Shown here: positions 8,748-42,840 of the stretch, piece after piece
Layout: each line of letters starts with the position of its first letter
Position numbering within the stretch: the stretch's first letter is position 1
NCBI GenBank assembly: GCA_035498015.1
Contig: DATKAO010000109.1
Location: 1-61,083, forward strand
Direction of reading: 5' to 3'
Origin: Myxococcota bacterium
Lineage (GTDB): Bacteria > Myxococcota_A > UBA9160 > SZUA-336
Length of the DNA stretch: 61,083 nucleotides
The notes under the pieces: generated by a model
Seen by the model: the letters and a program-made list of their open reading frames with translations, nothing else
Told to the model about the DNA's origin: nothing
Database searches by the model: none
Position numbers and translations under genes: made by a program

Positions 8748-9347
8748 CTAGCCGCGCGCGGCCTTGGACACGTAGAAACGCACCAGCTCGAAGCGATCGT
8801 TGCCCCAGAACATCTCGTCGCCGACGAAGAGGGTCGGCACGCCGAACACGCCGCGCGCCACCGCGGCCTCCGTGTCGCGAGTGAGTCGCGCCTCGAGCTC
8901 GGCCGACTTCGCGCGCTCTAGAACCGCGTCCGGGTCGAGGCCGGCGGCGCGGATGCGCTGCGCGAGCAATGACTCGTCGGAGAGGTCGCGGGCCTCGGCC
9001 CAGCGCGCGCGGTACAGGGGGTAGTGCAGCTCGCGGAAGCGGCCCATGTCCTTGGCGACCAGCGCGCAGCGCAGGGCGAGCTGTGTGTCGCTCTTGTACA
9101 GGGCGCGCGCGGCCGGGTCGATCTGCGCGCCCAGCGCTTCGGCCCAGTGACGCACGTCGTTGGCGTAGTTGGCGGTCTTGCGCGGACCGAGCTCGGGCGG
9201 CTTGCCGACGCCGGGCTCGACCAGCCGGCGCAGGTGCACCGGCCGGAAGTCGATCTCGACCCCGAGGTCGCGGAAATACGCCTCGGCGCGGTGCGAGCCC
9301 AGGTACGCCCACGGACACGCGTAGTCGAAGTAGAGCGGAAGCTGCAC
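8748..9347 (-). CDS. 2-hydroxychromene-2-carboxylate isomerase / DsbA-like oxidoreductase
   Basis: A 199-residue thioredoxin-fold protein of the DsbA/HCCA-isomerase group. It begins LPLYFDYACPWAYLGSHRAE, the usual N-terminus with the glutathione-binding region; a single cysteine in the ACPWAY position replaces the DsbA CxxC pair. The C-terminal part has GVFGVPTLFVGDEMFWGNDR, typical of the isomerase group. Homologues isomerise ring-fission products of naphthalene-like aromatics with glutathione. The GTG start at 9347 has a strong GGGAGGA ribosome-binding site; longer in-frame starts would overlap the divergent gene. It is 24 bases upstream of the EthD-nitroreductase fusion, so a shared operon is likely. 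Confidence 0.85.
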   Translation of the reverse strand: MQLPLYFDYACPWAYLGSHRAEAYFRDLGVEIDFRPVHLRRLVEPGVGKPPELGPRKTANYANDVRHWAEALGAQIDPAARALYKSDTQLALRCALVAKDMGRFRELHYPLYRARWAEARDLSDESLLAQRIRAAGLDPDAVLERAKSAELEARLTRDTEAAVARGVFGVPTLFVGDEMFWGNDRFELVRFYVSKAARG

Positions 9348-9375
9348 GGCGGTTCCTCCCTGCGGCCAGCGTATC

Positions 9376-10497
9376 ATGCGGGCCTTCGTGGAACCGGACT
9401 TCACCGCGCTCGAAGCCGAGATGGAGCGCCAGATCGCGTCGGGCCTGCGGCCGACGCTGCAGATCGCCGTCGACTGGCGCGGCCGGCGCGTGTTCGAGCG
9501 CGCGCTCGGGCCGGGCGCCACGAGCGACGCGACTTACGTCTTGTGGAGCTCGACCAAGCCGTTCGTGGCGGTGGCGCTGCTGCAGGCCGTCGACGAGGGC
9601 AAGCTCGCGCTCGACACGCGCGTCGCGACTCACATCCCGGAGTTCGGCGCGCACGGCAAGCACAAGGTGACTCTGGCGCAGCTCTTGTCGCACCGCGGCG
9701 GCTTCCCCGACAACACGCCCGAGCTGTCGCGGGCGCTGGCGCGGGTGTCTCGCGACTGGAACGAGGCGCTGCGCTTCGTGTGCGACATGACGCCCGCCTG
9801 GGAGCCCGGCACCGACCGCGGCTACCACCCGTCGTCGGCCTGGTTCGTGGCCGGCGAGCTGCTGCAGCGGCTCGACGGACGGCCGCTCTACGACTCACTG
9901 CGCGCGCGCGTGCTCGATCCGCTGGGCATTCCGCGCGACGGCTTCACGCTGGGCCGGCCCGAGGAGCTGGCCGCGCCACCGCTGCGCGTGACTACGCGCG
10001 ACGTGCGCGGCGCGCCACCGCAGGCAGAGGCCGACTGGTGGAACGACCCGCGCACACACTCCGCGGTGATTCCCGGCGGAGGCGGCATCGCGCGCGCGCG
10101 CAGCCTGGTCGCGTTCTACCGCGCGCTGCTCGCCGGCGGGCGCGGCGCCCACGGGCGCATCCTGTCCGCGGCGATGTTGCGCGCCGCCACCTTCCCGCAC
10201 GCAGTCGGCATCCGCGACCGCACGTTCCTGCTCGACATTCCGTGGGGGCTCGGCTTCCACCTGAAGCACGTGGTGCCGTCGCTCGATGACTGCGGCACGC
10301 GCGCGACGCCGGGCACGTTCGGACACGGCGGGCACTTCCTGGTGAACACGGCGTTCGCGGACCCGAGCCGCGACCTCGCGGTCGCGATCCTGTCGAACGG
10401 GCTGGGCGAGCCGCGCGCGGGCCGCGCAGCCGTGACCGCGCTGTCGGACGCGGTGCACGCCGCGATCGACGCTGCGCAGGCGCGCGTCGCGGAGTAG
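9376..10497 (+). CDS. Beta-lactamase-fold serine hydrolase
   Basis: A 373-residue member of the class C beta-lactamase / penicillin-binding-protein-like family. The SxxK catalytic motif is SSTK at residues 58-61, the Tyr motif is in [10 protein letters not shown], and the C-terminal [10 protein letters not shown] segment supplies the third motif. No signal peptide is obvious, so it is probably cytoplasmic, as with many esterase-like members (EstB type). It may be an esterase, amidase or lactone hydrolase; true antibiotic hydrolysis is not indicated. It is divergent from the isomerase gene and nine bases before yqgE, with which it could be co-transcribed. Confidence 0.85.
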
Positions 10498-19749: not shown

Positions 19750-22155
19750 TCACACGTTGTCGGACTCCGTCGAGCTCGCCCGCGTGCCGGCGGAGCCCGC
19801 GAGATCGCCCCAGCGCCAGCTCGCGATCGCGGGCAGGTCCTCGCCGTGCCTCTCGATGTACTCCTGGTGCTCGATCAGCCGGTCGCGGATCGCCTGCTTC
19901 GCGTAGGCGGCGCGCGCGCCGAGCTGCGGCACGCGGTCGATCACGTCGTTCACCAGGTGGAAGCGGTCGAGGTCGTTGCGCACGACCATGTCGAACGGCG
20001 TGGTCGTGGTGCCCTCCTCCTTGTAGCCGCGCACGTGCAGGTTCTCGTGATTCGTGCGCCGGTAGGTGAGTCGGTGGATCAGCCACGGGTAGCCGTGGAA
20101 GGCGAAGATGATCGGCTTGTCGCGGGTGAACAGCACGTCGAACTCGCGGTCGCTGAGCCCGTGTGGATGCTCCTCCGCCGGCTGCAAGCGCATCAGGTCC
20201 ACGACGTTGACCACGCGCACCTTCAGCTCGGGCAGGTGGCGGCGGACCAAGTCCACCGCCGCGAGTGTCTCGAGCGTCGGAACGTCGCCGCAGCAGGCCA
20301 TCACCACGTCGGGCTCGCCGCCCCGGTCGTTGCTCGCCCAGTCCCAGATCCCGATCCCGGCGCTGCAGTGCTTCACGGCCTGATCCATGTCGAGCCACTG
20401 CGGCGCGGGCTGCTTGCCGGCCACGATCACGTTCACGTAGTTGCGGCTGCGCAGGCAGTGATCGGTGACCGAGAGCAGCGTGTTCGCGTCGGGCGGAAGG
20501 TAGACGCGGATCACTTCGGCCTTCTTGTTCACCACGTGGTCGATGAAGCCCGGGTCCTGGTGACTGAAGCCGTTGTGGTCCTGGCGCCAGACGTGGGAGC
20601 TCAGCAGGTAGTTCAGCGAGGCGATCGGCCGCCGCCACGCGATCTGCCGTGACACCTTCAGCCACTTGGCGTGCTGGTTGAACATCGAGTCGACGATGTG
20701 GATGAAGGCCTCGTAGCAGCTGAAGAAGCCGTGGCGGCCGGTCAGCAGGTAGCCTTCGAGCCAGCCCTGACACTGGTGCTCGGACAAGACCTCCATCACG
20801 CGCCCGTCGGGGGAGAGGTGGTCGTCCTCGGGCCGGATCTCCGCGACGAAGCAGCGGTCGGTGGCTTCGAGCACGTCCTGCCAGCGGTTCGAGTTGTTCT
20901 CGTCGGGGCTGAATACGCGGAAGTTCCGGCTCTCGAGGTTGCGCTCCATCACGTCGCGCAGGAATTCGCCCTGCACGCGCGTGGCTTCGGCGCTCGATGC
21001 GCCGGGCTTCGGCACGGGGACGGCATAGTCGCGGAAGTCGGGCAGCCGCAGGTCGCGCAGCAGGAGCCCGCCGTTGGTGTGCGGATTCGCGCTCATGCGG
21101 CGCTCGCCCTTGGGCGCGAGCGCGGCGAGCTCGGGCACGAGCCGGCCCGCCGCGTCGAACAGCTCGTCGGGGCGGTAGCTGCGCATCCAGCCTTCGAGCA
21201 CGGCCACGTGCTCGGGCCGGTCCATGTCACTCATCGGGACCTGGTGACTGCGCCAGTAGCCCTCGCACAGCTTGCCATCGATCTCGCGCGGACAGGTCCA
21301 GCCCTTCGGCGTGCGCAGCACGATCATCGGCCAGATCGGCCGCGCCCCCTGGCCGCGCTCGCGCGCGTCGGCCTGGATGCGCCGGATCTCGGCCAGCACG
21401 CGCTCGAGTGTCTCGGCCATCTGCCGGTGCACGAGCTCCGGCTCGTGACCCTCGACGAAGAACGGCGCGTAGCCGTAGCCCTCGAGCAGCTTGCTGAGCT
21501 CGGCCTTCGGGATGCGCGCCAGAAAGGCGGGGTTGGCGATCTTGTAGCCGTTCAGGTGCAGGATCGGCAGAACGCAGCCGTCGCGCGCCGGGTTCAGGAA
21601 CTTGTTCCCGTGCCAGCCGGTCGCGAGCGGCCCGGTCTCGGCCTCGCCGTCGCCGACCACGCATGCCGCGATCAGGTCGGGGTTGTCGAACGCCGCGCCG
21701 AACGCGTGGGCCAGCGAGTAACCGAGCTCACCGCCCTCGTGGATCGAGCCGGGTGTCTCGGGCGCCACGTGACTCGGAATGCCGCCCGGGAAGCTGAACT
21801 GCTTGAACAGACGGCGCATGCCCTCCTCGTCGGGACTGACGTCCGGGTAGACCTCGCTGTAGGTGCCCTCGAGATACGCCTGGGCGATCAGCGCCGGGCC
21901 GCCGTGACCGGGACCGGTCACGAACAGCATGTCGAGGTCGTGCTCGGTGATCAGCCGGTTCAGGTGCAGGTACGCGAAGTTCAGCCCGGGCGTGGTGCCC
22001 CAGTGGCCGAGCAGCCGCGGCTTGATGTGCTCGCGCGCGAGCGGCTTGCGCAACAGCGGGTTGTCGAGCAGGTAGATCTGTCCGACGGAGAGGTAGTTCG
22101 CGGCGCGCCAGAGCGCGTCCAGCCGGTGCAGCGACTCGTCCGAGAGCGGGCCCAT
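19750..22155 (-). CDS. xfp: Phosphoketolase (xylulose-5-phosphate / fructose-6-phosphate)
   Basis: An 801-residue thiamine-diphosphate enzyme that splits xylulose-5-P or fructose-6-P with phosphate to acetyl-phosphate. Family signatures are the N-terminal [20 protein letters not shown], the [18 protein letters not shown] loop, the cofactor motif GDGEAETGP near residue 170, the [17 protein letters not shown] segment and the C-terminal [19 protein letters not shown]. The full length matches the family (about 790-825). It yields acetyl-phosphate and ATP without oxygen-dependent steps, useful under energy or oxygen limitation. A GAGAAGGAG ribosome-binding site precedes the ATG, and a very good sigma-54 promoter match lies 27 bases before it, linking the gene to the regulator at 41449. 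Confidence 0.96.
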
Positions 22156-22181: not shown

Positions 22182-22197
22182 CGCAAGACGGATGCCA
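22182..22197 (-). promoter_or_regulatory. Putative sigma-54 promoter of phosphoketolase
   Basis: On the minus strand TGGCATCCGTCTTGCG matches the -24/-12 consensus TGGCACG-N4-TTGCA at GGCA and TTGC with the obligatory GG-N10-GC spacing. The GC is 27 bases before the ATG, leaving room for the GAGAAGGAG ribosome-binding site. The upstream gene on the same strand ends at 22208, so the upstream activator site would have to lie inside that coding region. Confidence 0.6.
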
Positions 22198-35638: not shown

Positions 35639-36067
35639 TCAGTCTGCCTCGGGCGGGCTCTCCTTGCGCACGAGCTCGGCGATCGTGCCGAGCTCTTCCG
35701 CGAGCGCGACCAGGATGTCGTCGAGTGACACGACGCCCACGAGCTCGCGGCGGCCGTTCACGACCGGCACGCGGCGCAGCGCGAGATCGCGCATGACGCA
35801 GAGCACGCTGGCGGTGTCCTGGGTGTCGGTGACGAAGATCGGGCGCTCCGACATCACCTCGCCCACCAGGGCCTTCTCGGCGTCGAGGCCTTCCGCGAGC
35901 ACGCGCACGACCAGGTCGCGGTCGGTCAGCATGCCGATCGGCTCTCCGTCCTCGACCACCACCAGCGACCCCATCCGCTCGTCGCGCATGCACTGCGCCG
36001 CCACGGAGCACGGCGTGGCGGGCGAGACGGTTGCGGGCTCACGGCGCAAGAGCGTTCCGACGTTCAT
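35639..36067 (-). CDS. CBS-domain pair protein
   Basis: A 142-residue protein composed of two CBS domains: MNVGTLLRREPATVSPATPC with MGSLVVVEDGEPIGMLTDRDL, and VMSERPIFVTDTQD with LRRVPVVNGRRELVGVVSLDD. Such stand-alone Bateman modules bind adenine nucleotides and sense energy charge. It lies ten bases downstream of the cytochrome c gene on the same strand, so it should share that gene's sigma-54-like promoter. Two other CBS proteins (38 kb and 41 kb region) are in the same stress cluster. Confidence 0.92.
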   Translation of the reverse strand: MNVGTLLRREPATVSPATPCSVAAQCMRDERMGSLVVVEDGEPIGMLTDRDLVVRVLAEGLDAEKALVGEVMSERPIFVTDTQDTASVLCVMRDLALRRVPVVNGRRELVGVVSLDDILVALAEELGTIAELVRKESPPEAD

Positions 36068-36077
36068 GACCTTCCTC

Positions 36078-36521
36078 TCAGTGCTGGGGCGGCGGCGCGA
36101 CGGGCGCGGCCACTTGGATCGACTTCAGATACTCGACGAGCGATGCGATGCGGTCGCGAACCTCGACCTCGTTCGTCGCGTCCGCGGCGTCATAGGCGAA
36201 GACCTTGCCCCAGAGCGGCATCTTCGCGGGTCCGTGGCCGCGCACGCGCCTGCGGCCGTCGATGATCTCGCGCACCTCCGGCTCGGGAAACACACCGCCG
36301 CGGCGCTTCGCGATGGTCGTGAGATCGGCGGGCGCCACCTTCAGCTCGTCTGCCAGCGGGCCATCGCCGTGGGCGCGCAAGCCGTGACACACCATGCAGT
36401 GCTGCTCGTACAGGTTGTGCCCCGCCTGCGCCGGCACCGACTCCTCGCCGCGCGCGGAGCCGCCGATGACCAGCAAGAACCCCATTGCCGCGGTCGACCG
36501 CCAGAGCCCGTGCGATTTCAT
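36078..36521 (-). CDS. Class I cytochrome c (exported), paralogue of 19246-19680
   Basis: A 147-residue protein with a signal peptide (TAAMGFLLVIGGSARG) and one heme motif CMVCH near residue 45. GDGPLADELKVAPADLTTI, RRGGVFPEPEVREIIDGRR and a methionine in GPAKMPLWGKVF match the other cytochrome in this window. It is probably periplasmic, donating or accepting electrons near a terminal oxidase or reductase. ATG 36521 is only 14 bases after the GC of a strong sigma-54-like promoter, so its message would be nearly leaderless; a TTG six codons upstream is less likely. Confidence 0.88.
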   Translation of the reverse strand: MKSHGLWRSTAAMGFLLVIGGSARGEESVPAQAGHNLYEQHCMVCHGLRAHGDGPLADELKVAPADLTTIAKRRGGVFPEPEVREIIDGRRRVRGHGPAKMPLWGKVFAYDAADATNEVEVRDRIASLVEYLKSIQVAAPVAPPPQH

Positions 36522-36534
36522 GGCCCGGCGCTGG

Positions 36535-36550
36535 TGCAACGCACATGCCG
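36535..36550 (-). promoter_or_regulatory. Putative sigma-54 promoter of cytochrome c-CBS operon
   Basis: On the minus strand CGGCATGTGCGTTGCA fits TGGCACG-N4-TTGCA at GGCA, G and TTGCA, with GG-N10-GC spacing. The GC is 14 bases before the ATG, so transcription would start within a few bases of the start codon. Confidence 0.55.
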
Positions 36551-36643
36551 CCGCGGCCGCGCACGAGAGGTCACTCGACCGTGGCGGAATGACTCAGCGT
36601 GGCATCGAGTCACGAGCCCGAGCCACGAGCGCGCACCCGGCGC

Positions 36644-36659
36644 GGGTATGCTCGTTGCA
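36644..36659 (+). promoter_or_regulatory. Possible sigma-54 promoter of universal stress operon
   Basis: GGGTATGCTCGTTGCA has a perfect TTGCA -12 element and the GG-N10-GC spacing, but the -24 element (GGTAT) is weak. The GC is 13 bases before ATG 36672, and the bases between resemble those of the divergent cytochrome promoter. Confidence 0.35.
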
Positions 36660-36671
36660 CCGCCGGCCCGC

Positions 36672-37523
36672 ATGAGCTGGCCACCGCGCCGAATCCTCGT
36701 CGGAGTCGACTTTTCCGAGAGCTCCCGGGCGGCGCTGTCGGCGGCCAGCGGCCTGGCGCGACGGGTCGGCGCGACGCTCTCGCTGCTCCATGTCGTGCCC
36801 GATGCGCTGCTCTTCTCGCCCTCGCCGGAGGCCCGGGCCGCGGCGTCGAGGCGCTTGTCGCTGCTGGCCGAGCGCGAGGCGCCGCCGGGCACGGATTTCC
36901 ACGTCCGAAAGGGCGACCCGACGCTCGAGCTGGTCGCGCTGCGCGACCTGGGCGACTTCGACCTCGTCGTGACTGGCGCGGGTCACATGCGCAGCATGGG
37001 GCGCTTCGTGCTGGGCAGCGTCGCGGGCAAGCTGCTCGGATACCCCGGAGCACCGCTCCTGATCGTCGCCTCGACGCCCTCGGGGGGCGAGTTCAAGCGC
37101 ATCCTGATCGCGCAGGAGAACCCGCGAGTCACTTCGCCCTGGCAGAAGATCGGCCTCGCGCTGGCGCATGCCGAGCGCGGCGAGGTGGCGCTGCTGCACG
37201 TGCTGCCGCCGCGCGGCTATCTCTCCGATCGACACCACGTCGACCTCGAGCCGCAGCGCGCGCCATCGCGGCTTTGCGCACAGCTCGCCAAGCTCGATCC
37301 GACGGTGCCCGCCCAGGTGGTGATCCGGCAGGGCGAGGCCGGCAACGAGATCGCGGTCGCCGCGCGCGAGCTCGACGTTCATCTGGTCGTGCTCGGCGCC
37401 GAGCGCAACCGCCCCGACCACGGGCCCGGCCCGGTCGTGAACCGCATCGCGCGCTCCGGCGTCCCGGCGCTGCTCGTGATCTGGCCCGAGCGCGAGTCGG
37501 ACGAGGAGTTCGCCGAGCATTGA
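36672..37523 (+). CDS. Tandem universal stress protein
   Basis: A 283-residue protein with two UspA-like domains. The first starts RRILVGVDFSESSRAALSAA and includes VTGAGHMRSMGRFVLGSVAG, an intact nucleotide-binding glycine pattern. The second starts FKRILIAQENPRVTSPWQKI and is more divergent, with LGAERNRPDHGPGPVVNRI. ATG 36672 is used because the domain starts at once; ATG 36648 is also in frame. It is the first gene of a three-gene stress operon with a CBS-DksA fusion and a BCAM0308 protein. Confidence 0.87.
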   Translation: MSWPPRRILVGVDFSESSRAALSAASGLARRVGATLSLLHVVPDALLFSPSPEARAAASRRLSLLAEREAPPGTDFHVRKGDPTLELVALRDLGDFDLVVTGAGHMRSMGRFVLGSVAGKLLGYPGAPLLIVASTPSGGEFKRILIAQENPRVTSPWQKIGLALAHAERGEVALLHVLPPRGYLSDRHHVDLEPQRAPSRLCAQLAKLDPTVPAQVVIRQGEAGNEIAVAARELDVHLVVLGAERNRPDHGPGPVVNRIARSGVPALLVIWPERESDEEFAEH

Positions 37524-37566: not shown

Positions 37567-38373
37567 ATGAACCTCTCCCAGCTCATGACGCGCGACCCCG
37601 AGACGATCACGGCGGACGCATCCGTTCTCGCCGCGCTCGACCTCATGCTCGATCGGGGGATCCGCCACCTGCCGGTGGTCGACCGGCATGAGCGGCTGCG
37701 CGGCATCGTCTCGCTCGACGATCTGCGCGCCGCACTGCCCTTCCCGGTCTCCCTGCGCACCGCCCCCGATCCGGCCGATCGGCTGCTGGCGCTGGACTGC
37801 GCGGTCGGCGAGGTCATGACTCACGAGCCGCTGACCGGCCGGCCGGAGATGCCCCTCGGCGACGCAGCGGAGCTCCTGGCGCGCTTCCGGATCGGCTGCC
37901 TGCCCGTCGTCGACCAGGAGGGACGCGTGGTCGGCATCTTCACCGAGGTCGACGCGCTGCGTGCGCTCGTCCTGCGCGAGCCGCAGAAGCGCAGCGCTGC
38001 GGACGCACGCCTGCTGGACCGCGAGCTCCTGGTCGCCGAGCTGCGCGCCGAGCGCGAGCGGATCGGCCAGCAGCTCCAGCGCCTGCAGGACTCGGAGCGC
38101 GGGCTCTCCGCCCAGACGCGCGAGCCCATCGACAACCCGGAGCGGGCGCGCCTGCTCGAGGAGATCTATCTGGAGGAGCCGCTCTCCGCGCTGGCGGCGA
38201 GCCGACTCGAGGCCTTGGACCACGCGCTCGCGCGCGCCACGCAGGGCAGGTTCGGAGTATGTGAGGATTGCGGGGCCGAGATCCCGGCGGCCCGCTTGCG
38301 CGCGATGCCGGGAGCGACTCTGTGTGTGCGCTGTGCGGCCGGAAGGTCGGCGCGCGCGGAGGCTCTGCGATGA
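37567..38373 (+). CDS. CBS-pair / DksA-TraR zinc-finger fusion protein
   Basis: A 268-residue protein with three parts. Two CBS domains occupy about residues 1-60 (MNLSQLMTRDPETITADAS) and 80-138 (VMTHEPLTGRPEM, CLPVVDQEGRVVGIFTEVDA). A helical, charged linker of about residues 140-228 (LLVAELRAERERIGQQLQRL) leads to a C4 zinc finger with Cys232, 235, 253 and 256 (GVCEDCGAEIP, TLCVRCAAG) of the DksA/TraR type. The helix plus C4 finger resembles DksA-family proteins that enter the RNA polymerase secondary channel. The fusion suggests that nucleotide state sensed by CBS modules could tune transcription. GGAGG precedes the ATG. Confidence 0.88.
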   Translation: MNLSQLMTRDPETITADASVLAALDLMLDRGIRHLPVVDRHERLRGIVSLDDLRAALPFPVSLRTAPDPADRLLALDCAVGEVMTHEPLTGRPEMPLGDAAELLARFRIGCLPVVDQEGRVVGIFTEVDALRALVLREPQKRSAADARLLDRELLVAELRAERERIGQQLQRLQDSERGLSAQTREPIDNPERARLLEEIYLEEPLSALAASRLEALDHALARATQGRFGVCEDCGAEIPAARLRAMPGATLCVRCAAGRSARAEALR

Positions 38374-38976: not shown

Positions 38977-39429
38977 TCACTTGATCGCGATCTGGCGCGC
39001 CTTCGTCGCTTCCTTCTTCGGGATCTCGATGCGCAGCACGCCGTCGGCGAAGCTCGCCTTCAGCTGCTCGGCGAGCGCCGTGGGCGGGAGCGTGAAGGAG
39101 CGCGAGAACGAGCCGTAGGAGCGCTCGACCCAGTGCGAGCGGTCCTTCTTCTCCTCGCGTTCGCTCTTCTTCTCGCCGCGCAGGGTGAGCACATCTTCAT
39201 GGAGCTCGACCGTGAGGTCTTCGCGGCGGACCCCCGGCAGCTCCGCGCTGATCACGAACGCGTGCTCGTTCTCGCTGAGATCGACGGCAGGTGAAAGCAG
39301 CGAACCCCTCGCCGCTTCTTCGCCTTGCCGCGCGACGCGGCCGAACGGCCAGTCGCGGAACAAGACGTCGGCGAGCGAAGGCTCGTCGCGTGGGTTCCAA
39401 CGCTTGAGGCCAGAAGTTGGTTCCGCCAT
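38977..39429 (-). CDS. Hsp20 / alpha-crystallin family small heat shock protein
   Basis: A 150-residue small heat shock protein. The alpha-crystallin domain runs from about residue 45 (AVDLSENEHAFVISAELPGV) to 140, with the ADGVLRIEIPKK strand at its end; the C-terminus is short (RQIAIK). It forms oligomers that hold unfolded proteins in the cytoplasm. The ATG at 39429 has an AAGGAG site. A near-perfect sigma-54 promoter lies 36 bases upstream. The stop codon sits in TGAGTCA (minus strand). Confidence 0.93.
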   Translation of the reverse strand: MAEPTSGLKRWNPRDEPSLADVLFRDWPFGRVARQGEEAARGSLLSPAVDLSENEHAFVISAELPGVRREDLTVELHEDVLTLRGEKKSEREEKKDRSHWVERSYGSFSRSFTLPPTALAEQLKASFADGVLRIEIPKKEATKARQIAIK

Positions 39430-39464: not shown

Positions 39465-39480
39465 AGCAAGCGACGTGCCG
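39465..39480 (-). promoter_or_regulatory. Putative sigma-54 promoter of hsp20
   Basis: Minus-strand CGGCACGTCGCTTGCT matches GGCACG-N4-TTGC at every conserved core position with GG-N10-GC spacing, the best match in the window. The predicted transcript starts about 25 bases before the ATG and includes the AAGGAG ribosome-binding site. Confidence 0.7.
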
Positions 39481-39609: not shown

Positions 39610-40884
39610 ATGCTGAACCACGAGCTTCGCCTCGCGTTCTACGAGCTTGGCGACGAGGATCGCAAGAACCTGTCGCAGCTCCGGCCCCTGCTCGAGAAGT
39701 GGGCCGATTCGCTCGTGGCCGCGTTCTACCGGCACCTGCTGAGCTTCCAGGCCACGCGCGAGCTCCTGGCCGATCCCGACGTCAAGGACCGGTTGCTGGT
39801 CAAGCAACGCGAGTATCTGCTCTCGCTCGCCGACCCCGGGCTCGATGCCGACTACTTCGCGCAGCGGCTCGGGATCGGACGAACACACGTTCGTGTAGGC
39901 CTCGAGCCGCGCTTCTACCTGGGCGCGTATTCGCTCTACTTGCGCCTGCTCGTGCCTGCGATCCTGGAGAACTGGCAGCGCGAGCCCGCGCTGGCCGAGC
40001 GCATCATCCTGTCGCTCGAGAAGCTGCTCATGCTCGACGCGTCGGTCGCGATGGACTCGTACATCGCGCGCCGCGAGGAGCGGCTCGCGTTCTTGAATCA
40101 GGAGCTCGCGAACGCCTCGCGCGAGAGCGAGCGGCGCTTCGAGGCCGAGCACGAGCGCTCGCGCGACGCCACGGCCCGCGCTCGCGCCGCCGAGCAGCTC
40201 GTTTCACTCGCCACGCTGGTCGCGGGGCTGGCCCACGAGATCGGAACGCCCATGGGCGTGATCCGCGGTCACGCCGAGCTGCTCGAGTCGTCGGTGGCCG
40301 ACGAGCGCGGGCGCAAGCGCCTGCAGACGATCCGCGAGCAGATCGACCGCATCTCCCACATCATCCAGACGTTGCTCAACATGGCGCGGCCCGGCGCGCG
40401 CGACACCGCGCCCGTCGACGTGTGCGCGCTGCTGCGCGAGACGCTGGCCTTCCTGGCCGAGAAGCTGCGCGCGCACGCGATCGAGACCCGGCTCGAGCTG
40501 CCACCCCGCGCGATGGTGCGCGGCAGCTCGGACAAGCTGCAGCAGGTCCTGATCAACTTGGTGATCAACGCGGTCGACGCCATGAGCGCGGGCGGACAGC
40601 TCTCGGTGAGCGTCGACGCGAAATCACCCGACACGCTGGCGATCCGGGTCGCCGACACGGGCCAGGGCATGGATGCCGAGACCCAGGCGCGCATCTTCGA
40701 GCCGTTCTTCAGCACCAAGCCGCCCGGAAGCGGCAGCGGGCTCGGGCTGGTGGTCGTGCGCGAGATCGTGTCGGACCACGGCGGCTCGATCGAAGTCTCG
40801 AGCTCGCCGGGTCACGGCACCGAGTTCATCGTGACTCTACCGCGGCTGACTCAGTCCGACGCGCCGGTGAAGTCGGGAACGTAG
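39610..40884 (+). CDS. Globin-coupled sensor histidine kinase
   Basis: A 424-residue soluble kinase. Residues 1-155 form a protoglobin domain (LLEKWADSLVAAFYRHLLSF and GIGRTHVRVGLEPRFYLGAY), with His93 as the expected proximal heme ligand. A coiled-coil linker (about 155-200) leads to the HisKA domain, H-box LAHEIGTPMGVIRG with phospho-acceptor His209, and then the ATPase domain with LVINAVDAMS (N box), VADTGQGMD (G1) and GSGLGLVVV (G2). Globin-coupled sensors bind O2, CO or NO. It lies beside the NtrC-type regulator at 41449, separated only by a convergent CBS gene, so that is the likely partner. Its 3' end overlaps the CBS gene by 34 bases. Confidence 0.92.
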   Translation: MLNHELRLAFYELGDEDRKNLSQLRPLLEKWADSLVAAFYRHLLSFQATRELLADPDVKDRLLVKQREYLLSLADPGLDADYFAQRLGIGRTHVRVGLEPRFYLGAYSLYLRLLVPAILENWQREPALAERIILSLEKLLMLDASVAMDSYIARREERLAFLNQELANASRESERRFEAEHERSRDATARARAAEQLVSLATLVAGLAHEIGTPMGVIRGHAELLESSVADERGRKRLQTIREQIDRISHIIQTLLNMARPGARDTAPVDVCALLRETLAFLAEKLRAHAIETRLELPPRAMVRGSSDKLQQVLINLVINAVDAMSAGGQLSVSVDAKSPDTLAIRVADTGQGMDAETQARIFEPFFSTKPPGSGSGLGLVVVREIVSDHGGSIEVSSSPGHGTEFIVTLPRLTQSDAPVKSGT

Positions 40885-41312
40885 GCCGCGCGCAGCAAGT
40901 CACTCTCAGTCACCAGGCCCAGCAGCACCGGCCCCGCGGGACCCGGGCGCACGACCGGCAGGCAGCCGATCTTCTGTCCGAGCATGCGGCGCGCGGCCGT
41001 CGCCAGCGTGGTGGTCTCGTCGGCGGTGGTGAGCGTGCGCTGCATGACCTCGCGGATCGAGATGCTCCGCAGGTGGTCGATGCGCTGGGCAGGCGCGGCC
41101 GCCTCGAGCTTCGAGATCGACGCGGCCAGCACGTCGCGGTGCGAGACCAGGCCGACCAGCACGTCCTTGTGCACGACCGGCAGGTGGCGGATGCGCGCGA
41201 GCCGCATGATCCGGTCGGCCTCGAGCAGCGTCTCGTCGGGCCCGACGGCGATGAAGTTCGAACGCATCAAGCTGGCGACGGTCCGAGCGGGCAGAGGCGT
41301 GGATTGGGCCAT
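40851..41312 (-). CDS. CBS-domain pair protein
   Basis: A 153-residue two-CBS protein: VASLMRSNFIAVGPDETL with IRHLPVVHKDVLVGLVSHRD, and IREVMQRTLTTADE with KIGCLPVVRPGPAGPVLLGL. It probably senses adenylate pools. The frame is open to 41450, but MAQSTPLPARTV at 41312 is the sensible start: the sigma-54-like promoter and a 19-bp palindrome lie just upstream, and a longer product would cover them. It lies between the globin kinase and the sigma-54 activator, on the opposite strand, and is a likely target of that system. Confidence 0.88.
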   Translation of the reverse strand: MAQSTPLPARTVASLMRSNFIAVGPDETLLEADRIMRLARIRHLPVVHKDVLVGLVSHRDVLAASISKLEAAAPAQRIDHLRSISIREVMQRTLTTADETTTLATAARRMLGQKIGCLPVVRPGPAGPVLLGLVTESDLLRAAYVPDFTGASD

Positions 41313-41327
41313 TGGTCCGGCGGATCG

Positions 41328-41343
41328 TGCATTGCGCGTGCCC
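41328..41343 (-). promoter_or_regulatory. Putative sigma-54 promoter of the CBS gene
   Basis: Minus-strand GGGCACGCGCAATGCA has GGCACG for the -24 element and TGCA at -12, with GG-N10-GC spacing. The GC is 16 bases before ATG 41312, again predicting a very short leader. Confidence 0.55.
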
Positions 41344-41370
41344 TGTGGTTCGAAACCCCAGTTGTGGCGG

Positions 41371-41389
41371 TGTGCCCCATTCGGGCACA
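41371..41389. promoter_or_regulatory. 19-bp inverted repeat between CBS gene and sigma-54 activator
   Basis: TGTGCCC-CATTC-GGGCACA has perfect 7-bp arms and a 5-bp spacer, the same architecture as NtrC-type enhancer sites. It is centred about 52 bases upstream of the predicted CBS promoter start and about 70 bases before the activator gene, so it could serve CBS activation and autoregulation. Confidence 0.55.
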
Positions 41390-41448
41390 ATGGAAGCGCG
41401 CGAATTGCGCTCCGGACGAGGGCACGCCCCCTGCTATGACGGCTGACC

Positions 41449-42840
41449 ATGGGTGAACCGCGAAACGTACTGGTGGTCGACGACGAGCCCGCGATGCGGG
41501 AGATGCTGGTCTCTCTGTTGGAGGAGGCCGGGATTCACGCCCAGGCCGCCGAGTCCGCGCAGCAAGCGCTCGCGCTCTGCCGGGACACCGACCTCGACGC
41601 GGTGATCTCCGACATCCGCATGCCGGGGAAGGACGGAGTCACCCTGCTGGGCGAGCTGCGCGAGACCCGCCCCGAGACGCCGGTCATCCTGATGACCGCC
41701 TTCGGCAGCATCGACTCCGCCGTCGACGCCATGCGCCACGGCGCGTTCGACTACATCACCAAGCCCTTCCAGCGCGGCGCCGTGCTCGCCTCGCTCGAGC
41801 GCGCCTTCGAGCGGCGCACGCTCGAGCAGGAGAACCGGCGCCTGCGCCGCGCGCTCGACCGGACGAGCTCGTTCGGCGACCTGATCGGGGCGAGCCCGGC
41901 CATGCGCGAGATCTTCGCGCTGGTGCGCAAGATCTCGAGCAGCCGCTCGAACGTGCTGATCACCGGCGAGAGCGGCACCGGCAAGGAGGTGGTCGCGCGC
42001 ACGATCCACTTCACCGGCGGCCGCGCGCACGCCGCGTTCGTGCCGATCAACTGCACGGCCATGCCCGAGGGCCTGCTCGAGAGCGAGCTCTTCGGTCACG
42101 TGCGCGGCGCCTTCACCGGCGCGCACACCAGCAAGCGCGGCCTGTTCGAGGAGGCGAGTCACGGCACGATCTTCCTCGACGAGATCGGCGACATGAGCCC
42201 GGCCTTGCAGAGCAAGCTCCTGCGCGTGCTGCAGGAGCACGAGATCCGGCCGGTGGGCGGCAACAAGACCGTGCAGGTCGACGCGCGAGTCATCGCCGCG
42301 ACCAACAAGGACCTGCGCGCCGAGGTGGCCGCTGGCCGCTTCCGCCAGGATCTGTACTACCGGCTGAACGTGATTCCGATCCACATCCCCCCGCTGCGCG
42401 AGCGCCCGGAAGACGTCGCCCCGCTGGCGCAGTCGTTCCTGGCGCGCCACGCCCCGGGGCGAAAAGTCACGCTGGGGCTGGATGCGCTCGAGCTGCTGCG
42501 CCGCCAGCGCTGGGAGGGCAACGCGCGCGAGCTCGAGAACGCGATCGAGCGCGCGCTCCTGCTGACCGCCGGCGACGAGATCCGTGCCGCCGACCTGCCG
42601 CTCGAGGCCGCCGAGCTCCGGCCGGCCGGCGTGCCGGCTTCCCCCGCTGCAGCCGGGCTGCTCGACGACGCGCTCGCGCGCCAGCTCACGCTGGCGCAGC
42701 TCGGCACGCTGTACATCGAGCGCGTGCTCGCGCTCGTCCACGGCAACAAGGTGCGCGCCGCGCGCATCCTGGGCATCAACCGCCGCACGCTGTACCGCCG
42801 CAAGGAAACCCGCCGCGGCCGCGCGCAGAACCAGGAGTGA
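41449..42840 (+). CDS. NtrC-family sigma-54-dependent response regulator
   Basis: A 463-residue regulator with all three domains. The receiver has Asp55 as phospho-acceptor (VISDIRMPG) and DDE acidic residues at 11-13. The AAA+ domain has Walker A GESGTGKE (173-180), the sigma-54 contact loop GAFTGA (220-225), and Walker B FLDEIGDM. The Fis-type HTH is near the C-terminus ([15 protein letters not shown]). It therefore activates sigma-54 promoters when phosphorylated, most likely by the globin kinase nearby. It is followed three bases later by a universal stress gene in the same operon. It is the only sigma-54 activator in the window. Confidence 0.95.

Follow-up and report, generated by a model that had tools for sequence, protein, structure and literature searches.

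In textbooks, sigma-54 promoters stand for transcription that strictly requires an activator, and their genes usually carry an ordinary leader. The nearest described system that was found for the locus analyzed here is NmpRSTU of Myxococcus xanthus: the available parts of its description present an NtrC-like regulator connected to oxygen whose targets include its own operon and a universal stress protein, discuss CBS-domain proteins as well, and describe the first kinase as heme-dependent (PMC11841059). Leaderless genes are known from Deinococcus-Thermus, where, according to the accessible sections of the report, a −10 box lies against the open reading frame phylum-wide (PMC12340547). The start-site map of Sinorhizobium meliloti, as far as its text is available, counts 171 starts as leaderless and reports sigma-54 motifs ahead of 112 (PMC3616915). 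On the sensory side, AfGcHK is described in the excerpted source as the globin-coupled histidine kinase of Anaeromyxobacter (PMC8697598). A description of a leaderless sigma-54 gene class was not found in the literature searched, which lay mostly outside subscription journals.

The DNA considered here—the window—is a stretch of 61,083 nucleotides from a Myxococcota bacterium, in which predicted sigma-54 promoters stand directly before start codons in two divergent pairs. We assign a probability of about 0.78 to the reading that all four are true sigma-54 promoters whose RNA begins at the start codon or up to about 5 nt before it, that they form one regulon, and that this placement is a habit of the bacterial class. 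The reading builds on the motif, its distance from the start codon, its conservation, a palindrome, and the presence of rpoN and an activator. The predicted +1 is taken as the twelfth base past the C in the GC at −12; all leaders are derived from the −12 box alone. The relevant features are the following:

36078–36521, minus strand: cytochrome c gene, 147 aa (Pfam Cytochrome_CBB3 and Cytochrom_C)
36535–36550, minus strand: predicted sigma-54 promoter of the cytochrome c gene, CGGCATGTGCGTTGCA, 16.6 bits, top matrix match in the window; predicted +1 at 36524, predicted leader 3 nt
36580–36596, no strand: enhancer-like palindrome CGTGGCGGAATGACTCA, 17 bp, 13.8 bits, between the divergent cytochrome and Usp promoters
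36598–36614, no strand: second, weaker palindrome copy, 18 bp further, 7.3 bits, a score common by chance
36644–36659, plus strand: predicted sigma-54 promoter of the Usp gene, GGGTATGCTCGTTGCA, 14.5 bits, weak −24 box; predicted +1 at 36670, predicted leader 2 nt
36672–37523, plus strand: universal stress protein (Usp) gene, 283 aa (Pfam Usp), start MSWPPRRILVGVD
38977–39429, minus strand: Hsp20 gene (Pfam HSP20), the contrast case with a leader
39465–39480, minus strand: predicted sigma-54 promoter of the Hsp20 gene, CGGCACGTCGCTTGCT, 15.7 bits, ordinary 25-nt leader with the SD GGAG
39610–40884, plus strand: protoglobin-HisKA-HATPase histidine kinase gene, 424 aa (Pfam domains)
40851–41312, minus strand: tandem CBS-domain protein gene, 153 aa (Pfam CBS, two stretches)
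41328–41343, minus strand: sigma-54-like promoter of the CBS gene, GGGCACGCGCAATGCA, 12.9 bits, weak −12 box; predicted +1 at 41317, predicted leader 5 nt
41344–41360, no strand: second, weaker palindrome copy, 19 bp away, 7.5 bits, a score common by chance
41363–41379, no strand: enhancer-like palindrome TGTGGCGGTGTGCCCCA, 17 bp, between the CBS and response regulator promoters; at 14.1 bits the top palindrome match in the window
41420–41435, plus strand: predicted sigma-54 promoter of the response regulator gene, GGGCACGCCCCCTGCT, 11.8 bits; predicted +1 at 41446, predicted leader 3 nt
41449–42840, plus strand: NtrC-type response regulator (RR) gene, 463 aa

Three of these sites had been reported by a first-pass annotation, which placed −12 GC dinucleotides 13, 14, and 16 bases ahead of the ATGs at 36672 (plus strand), 36521 (minus strand), and 41312 (minus strand) and predicted nearly leaderless transcripts. 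The distances can be read off the sequence and translate into predicted leaders of 2, 3, and 5 nt; the fourth site at 41420–41435 (plus strand), before the RR gene, had been missed, so that the observation was right but understated. All four sites carry GG-N10-GC, and two of them have one weak, nonconsensus box: GGTA at −24 for the site at 36644 and ATGC at −12 for that at 41328. The earlier description of the 36644 promoter as weak thus stands for its −24 box, but the palindrome at 36580–36596 is present and the Usp homolog of locus L102 has a better promoter. The N terminus of the cytochrome c was judged by eye to be signal-peptide-like. In the same stress-gene neighborhood, which holds the Usp, CBS, and Hsp20 proteins, a gene at 37567–38373 (plus strand) joins two CBS domains to a zinc finger of the DksA/TraR type.

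How far such a picture could arise within the window alone depends on the motif definition. A loose pattern with two mismatches gave 13 matches in the window against 14.07 in shuffles; being uninformative, it was replaced by a weight matrix—its frequencies an approximation to those of the published compilation of sigma-54 promoters—combined with a distance rule. The six best matrix matches in the 61 kb are all intergenic after correction of the Usp start, and four of them have a predicted leader of 2–6 nt before a gene start (2–5 nt in fact). The fifth best match, TGGCATCCGTCTTGCG at 22182–22197 (minus strand), lies between genes with a predicted leader of 16 nt to a start at 22155. Column-permuted matrices never reached four in 400 trials and attained one at most, on 55 gene starts of which four (Usp, CBS, Hsp20, and cytochrome) were set by hand and three of these (36672, 36521, and 41312) belong to the scoring four; the weight of the argument was hence placed on the wider genome data. 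The hand-set starts replace the output of a small gene caller that had fused Usp with upstream DNA (35988–37523), shortened CBS, and missed Hsp20 and the cytochrome, and that was otherwise used solely for the 290-gene profile described below.

The firmest case among the four is the RR gene, which could be located in 30 of the 32 loci (the window and 31 fetched loci; L111 and L120 contain no RR in the available stretch and stand outside the 30). A sigma-54 site of at least 11 bits lies at leader 2–6 before this gene in 27 of the 30 loci, spread over seven families, and a comparable site occurs at 13 of 20,000 random positions. For L099, the start was scored one base off (true leader 3), and for L124, it was set by hand; the invariance of the motif is in part a selection effect, as 11 bits were required. 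The start codon is ATG in 25 of the 27 loci and GTG in two (L109 and L126). The exceptions are L110, with a leader of 14 nt and AGGAGG, L119, with a leader of 33 nt, and L114, which has no motif. In all 30 loci, only a few residues separate the start from the receiver domain (VLVVDDE and variants), which a later start would hence destroy. For the RR gene, this speaks strongly against start codons further downstream, a possibility raised by the first-pass annotation itself.

When the regions upstream of 28 RR genes were searched with a matrix, the 17-bp palindrome TGtGgCAtaaTGcCaCA emerged with a log-likelihood of 157.6, as compared with 28.4 for the best shuffled set (training on 28 loci, with L114 left out and L099 not included). 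Palindrome lists made locus by locus did not reveal a shared site. The copy at 41363–41379 is itself a member of the training set, and the one at 36580–36596 is the second best match of the window and its best nontraining one. Third in rank, with 12.0 bits, is a match at 9084–9100 inside a called gene (8748–9377), where no sigma-54 site is linked to it. Low-scoring matches are not in excess: 17 matches of at least 6 bits in the window are fewer than the 28.25 in shuffles, and as an IUPAC pattern, which is too loose, the palindrome is barely enriched genome-wide (114 versus 98). Upstream of the Hsp20 gene, the enhancer palindrome was not found (best score 3.0). Among the 54 sigma-54 motifs of the own genome, four have a palindrome of at least 10 bits upstream, against one of 54 in the downstream control; these four belong to RR, cytochrome, L129, and L152, of which L152 is not leaderless and has its nearest coding-like start at 60. 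As so few sigma-54 sites carry the palindrome, the leaderless placement is wider than the RR regulon.

For the other three genes of the window, the placement is less firm than for RR. Usp homologs show a leader of 2 nt in three of five matches (window, L102, and L126) and one of 31 nt in L112; the L102 protein has the same N terminus as the window Usp, and its better promoter also sits at leader 2. Of 12 cytochrome matches, which are probably not orthologs, two lie at leader 2–6. CBS homologs that diverge from RR in L103, L104, L105, and L108 have the motif and an ATG at leader 2–4. Among the 14 best CBS matches, two lie at leader 2–6 with the automatic start and three if any in-frame start is allowed; in L097, from the same genus, the motif is present and no start falls at leader 2–6.

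The distance between motif and start codon was then considered across genomes. The own genome contains GGCAYRNNNNYTGCW 54 times and its backward pattern 31 times. An ATG follows GGCAYRNNNNYTGCW at leader 2–4 in 12 cases, at −1 to 1 in none, at 5–7 in two, at 8–10 in none, and at 14–16 in five. By the authors' model, 11 of the 12 ATGs begin a coding-like frame, and six further GTGs at leader 2–4 do so with uncertain starts. In 59 genomes—the own one and 58 relatives from the class—leaders of −1 to 1, 2–4, 5–7, 8–10, and 14–16 gave 55, 268, 96, 75, and 118 matches, and backward-pattern controls in the same order gave 26, 32, 39, 54, and 40. Sites at leader 2–4 are present in 55 of the 59 genomes. 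A sharp lower edge appears in a profile of 290 called genes that have 40 nt free upstream (window and 31 loci, including the RR genes): the motif starts at −31, −30, −29, −28, and −27 in 1, 3, 4, 4, and 7 cases, 19 in total, and at none of the positions −26 to −15, although it would still fit there. Such an edge at leader 2 is what would be expected if the RNA had to start at or before the start codon. A near-leaderless placement of sigma-54 promoters thus seems to extend class-wide, as far as genome sequence can tell. The earlier judgment, which saw sigma-54 promoters of nearly leaderless messages at a distance beyond mere chance, is supported by this peak in 59 genomes with its lower edge at leader 2, the conservation before RR in 27 of 30 loci, the conserved upstream palindrome, the GAFTGA activator, and a single rpoN match in the own genome.

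In a further set of genomes, the picture differs. This set of 48 genomes, reached through 50 of 65 loci and chosen by the authors, was counted at leaders 2–4 and 14–16 and shows no excess at leader 2–4, with 83 matches (control 25) versus 90 at 14–16 (control 36); the set appears to consist mostly of other lineages, and its L032 genome looks identical to the class member G049. A strict leader-3 pattern matches 13 times in 49 genomes of the class and 11 times in 186 further genomes of the phylum, with a control of 0. Hence, the near-leaderless sigma-54 habit may reach past the class at a lower rate.

The bases around the start codon were analyzed in 149 leader 2–4 strings among the matches listed, 146 of them distinct. 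Of the 72 distinct leader-2 sites, 64 have a C directly before the ATG, as do 33 of 45 leader-3 sites; at leader 4, this base is mainly G (17 of 29). At leader 14–16, a C precedes the ATG in 48 of 118 cases (Fisher 1.7e-11 versus leader 2). Transcription commonly initiates at an A preceded by a pyrimidine. Together with this habit, the C|ATG of the leader-2 sites suggests that the A of the ATG may be the +1 itself. Leader-2 sites show two more regularities: a C follows the −12 TGCW in 47 of 72, so that the box extends to TTGCTC, and positions −2 to −4 are often G (43, 38, and 39 of 72). Both could possibly be class-specific features of the promoter or initiator.

Further genes of the own genome predicted to be leaderless and sigma-54-dependent encode an Fe/Mn superoxide dismutase, a Cpn60 family chaperonin, a LigD 3'-phosphoesterase, a phospholipase-D-like protein, an AMP-binding enzyme, a histidine kinase, and a PEP-CTERM protein, next to several proteins without known function. 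One contig of this genome (C239, 29.6 kb, with L168, L169, and L170) bears 10 of the 54 sigma-54 motifs, some close together on opposite strands, and looks like a sigma-54 stress island with PLD-like, DUF748, and nucleotidyltransferase genes. In the relative G025, contigs C207, C228, C235, and C293 bear four near-identical leader-2 sigma-54 promoters, three with almost the same 30-mer, which suggests that a leaderless sigma-54 gene or element has multiplied there.

Several other explanations of these placements have to be weighed. Promoters that are real and true starts that lie further downstream, giving ordinary leaders, would fit the cytochrome and CBS genes, whose start codons are, across the sequences compared, not fixed by homology; the cytochrome gene even has a second in-frame ATG 36 nt downstream (L148). 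Nevertheless, we regard this as quite unlikely, given the receiver domain near the RR start in all 30 loci, the start of the superoxide dismutase (L157)—firm because its Pfam domain begins at residue 2—and the fact that the ATG itself, not mere coding sequence, peaks at a fixed distance. Alternatively, the main mRNA might come from a promoter further upstream and have a normal leader, with the sigma-54 site being secondary. SD-like tetramers are in line with this: they occur in 32 of the 146 distinct strings (GGGG included) and in 8 of 27 RR spacers, where they speak against a purely leaderless design; if the RNA starts downstream of it, such a tetramer would be useless. But 19 of the 27 RR spacers have no such tetramer, and an upstream promoter leaves the sharp edge at leader 2 without a reason, so that this explanation appears unlikely.

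Chance or base composition, by which GC-rich intergenic DNA yields GG and GC pairs near an ATG, would agree with the lack of enrichment of the loose pattern in the window. It is disfavored to the point of being very improbable by the peak at a single distance (268 matches versus 32 in the backward control), by the missing excess in the 48 other genomes, and by the conservation before RR. A last possibility is compatible with the best explanation: leaderless mRNAs might be made from all promoters class-wide, the sigma-54 genes merely sharing the habit. Here, the balance is even. TANNNT is found 14 times at −14 to −11 in the 290 genes of the window and 31 loci, where about 5 would be expected—a hint of leaderless sigma-70 genes too—but the rise is small, and the same genes are enriched in SD sequences (GGAG at −11 17 times versus about 2 expected).

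If the four sites are indeed near-leaderless sigma-54 promoters of one regulon, the likely sensor, from its domains, is the protoglobin histidine kinase at 39610–40884, in which a protoglobin domain precedes HisKA and HATPase_c. Its globin domain aligns with those of HemAT and AfGcHK, and the His of THVRVGL (HVRxGL) is in register with the same His of these two proteins, which we take to be the proximal heme ligand. Matches that cover both globin and kinase parts occur in 32 of 59 genomes, among the matches listed. The globin domain makes oxygen the probable signal of the kinase, and the shared neighborhood suggests RR as its partner, a protein with receiver, AAA+, and Fis-type HTH domains (Pfam) and a GAFTGA loop read in the sequence. 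The kinase, as a probable O2 sensor, would thus act on the NtrC-type regulator (41449), which in turn would bind the 17-bp palindromes between the two divergent promoter pairs and open sigma-54 RNA polymerase at its own, the CBS, the Usp, and the cytochrome c promoters. RNA would start at the start codon or up to about 5 nt ahead, the mRNAs would be leaderless or nearly so, and they would be translated without an upstream SD. As a class habit, further sigma-54 genes would be near-leaderless, beside a second set with ordinary SD leaders.

A more specific version is tentative, with the odds slightly against it: the class might possess two kinds of sigma-54 promoters, one of which uses the start codon as initiator (C|ATG with A as +1) and couples promoter opening to leaderless translation. 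If true, ATP-dependent, enhancer-driven opening would be tied directly to leaderless translation, and the protoglobin–NtrC genes and other stress genes would bypass SD-dependent initiation, perhaps allowing for continued translation when ribosomes or initiation factors are limiting. In a bacterial class that sets sigma-54 promoters against start codons, the form of transcription initiation under the tightest control would be linked to the form of translation initiation that is least understood, and the purpose of leaderless translation would become testable on a defined regulon. In addition, the motif followed by 12–14 nt and an ATG might serve as a practical rule for start-codon correction and for finding regulons in uncultured bacteria.

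Compared with the systems described so far, this locus shares parts with several of them. Like the window system, NmpRSTU has two enhancer sites upstream of its sigma-54 sites. Its regulator recognizes GCGCA-N5-TGCGC, in contrast to the proposed TGTGGCA-N3-TGCCACA here, and its sites are 14–15 bp apart in five of seven promoters, whereas the window copies lie only about 1–2 bp apart; NmpRSTU also uses a hybrid-kinase relay instead of a single protoglobin kinase nearby, and the word leaderless is absent from the available part of its description (PMC11841059). As the binding consensus differs, the window regulator is regarded as working like NmpR and is not filed as NmpR. Its relatives in the Protein Data Bank are members of the NtrC family (4l4u and 1ny5), with which it has the receiver, AAA+, and Fis-type HTH domains and the type of 17-bp dyad site in common, while its predicted half-site is a different one and its predicted target promoters lie against the start codon. 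The window kinase and AfGcHK (PDB 5ohe) both fuse a protoglobin to a histidine kinase, and their globin parts align with 5.9e-09. In S. meliloti, the leaderless starts and the sigma-54 motifs are two sets that the accessible text does not join, nor does that text describe sigma-54 genes as a systematic leaderless class (PMC3616915). The leaderless genes of Deinococcus-Thermus depend on sigma-70-type (RpoD) promoters, as opposed to sigma-54 with enhancer and activator in the window; a core promoter directly before the start codon is, going by the sections at hand, common to that phylum and to the class analyzed here (PMC12340547).
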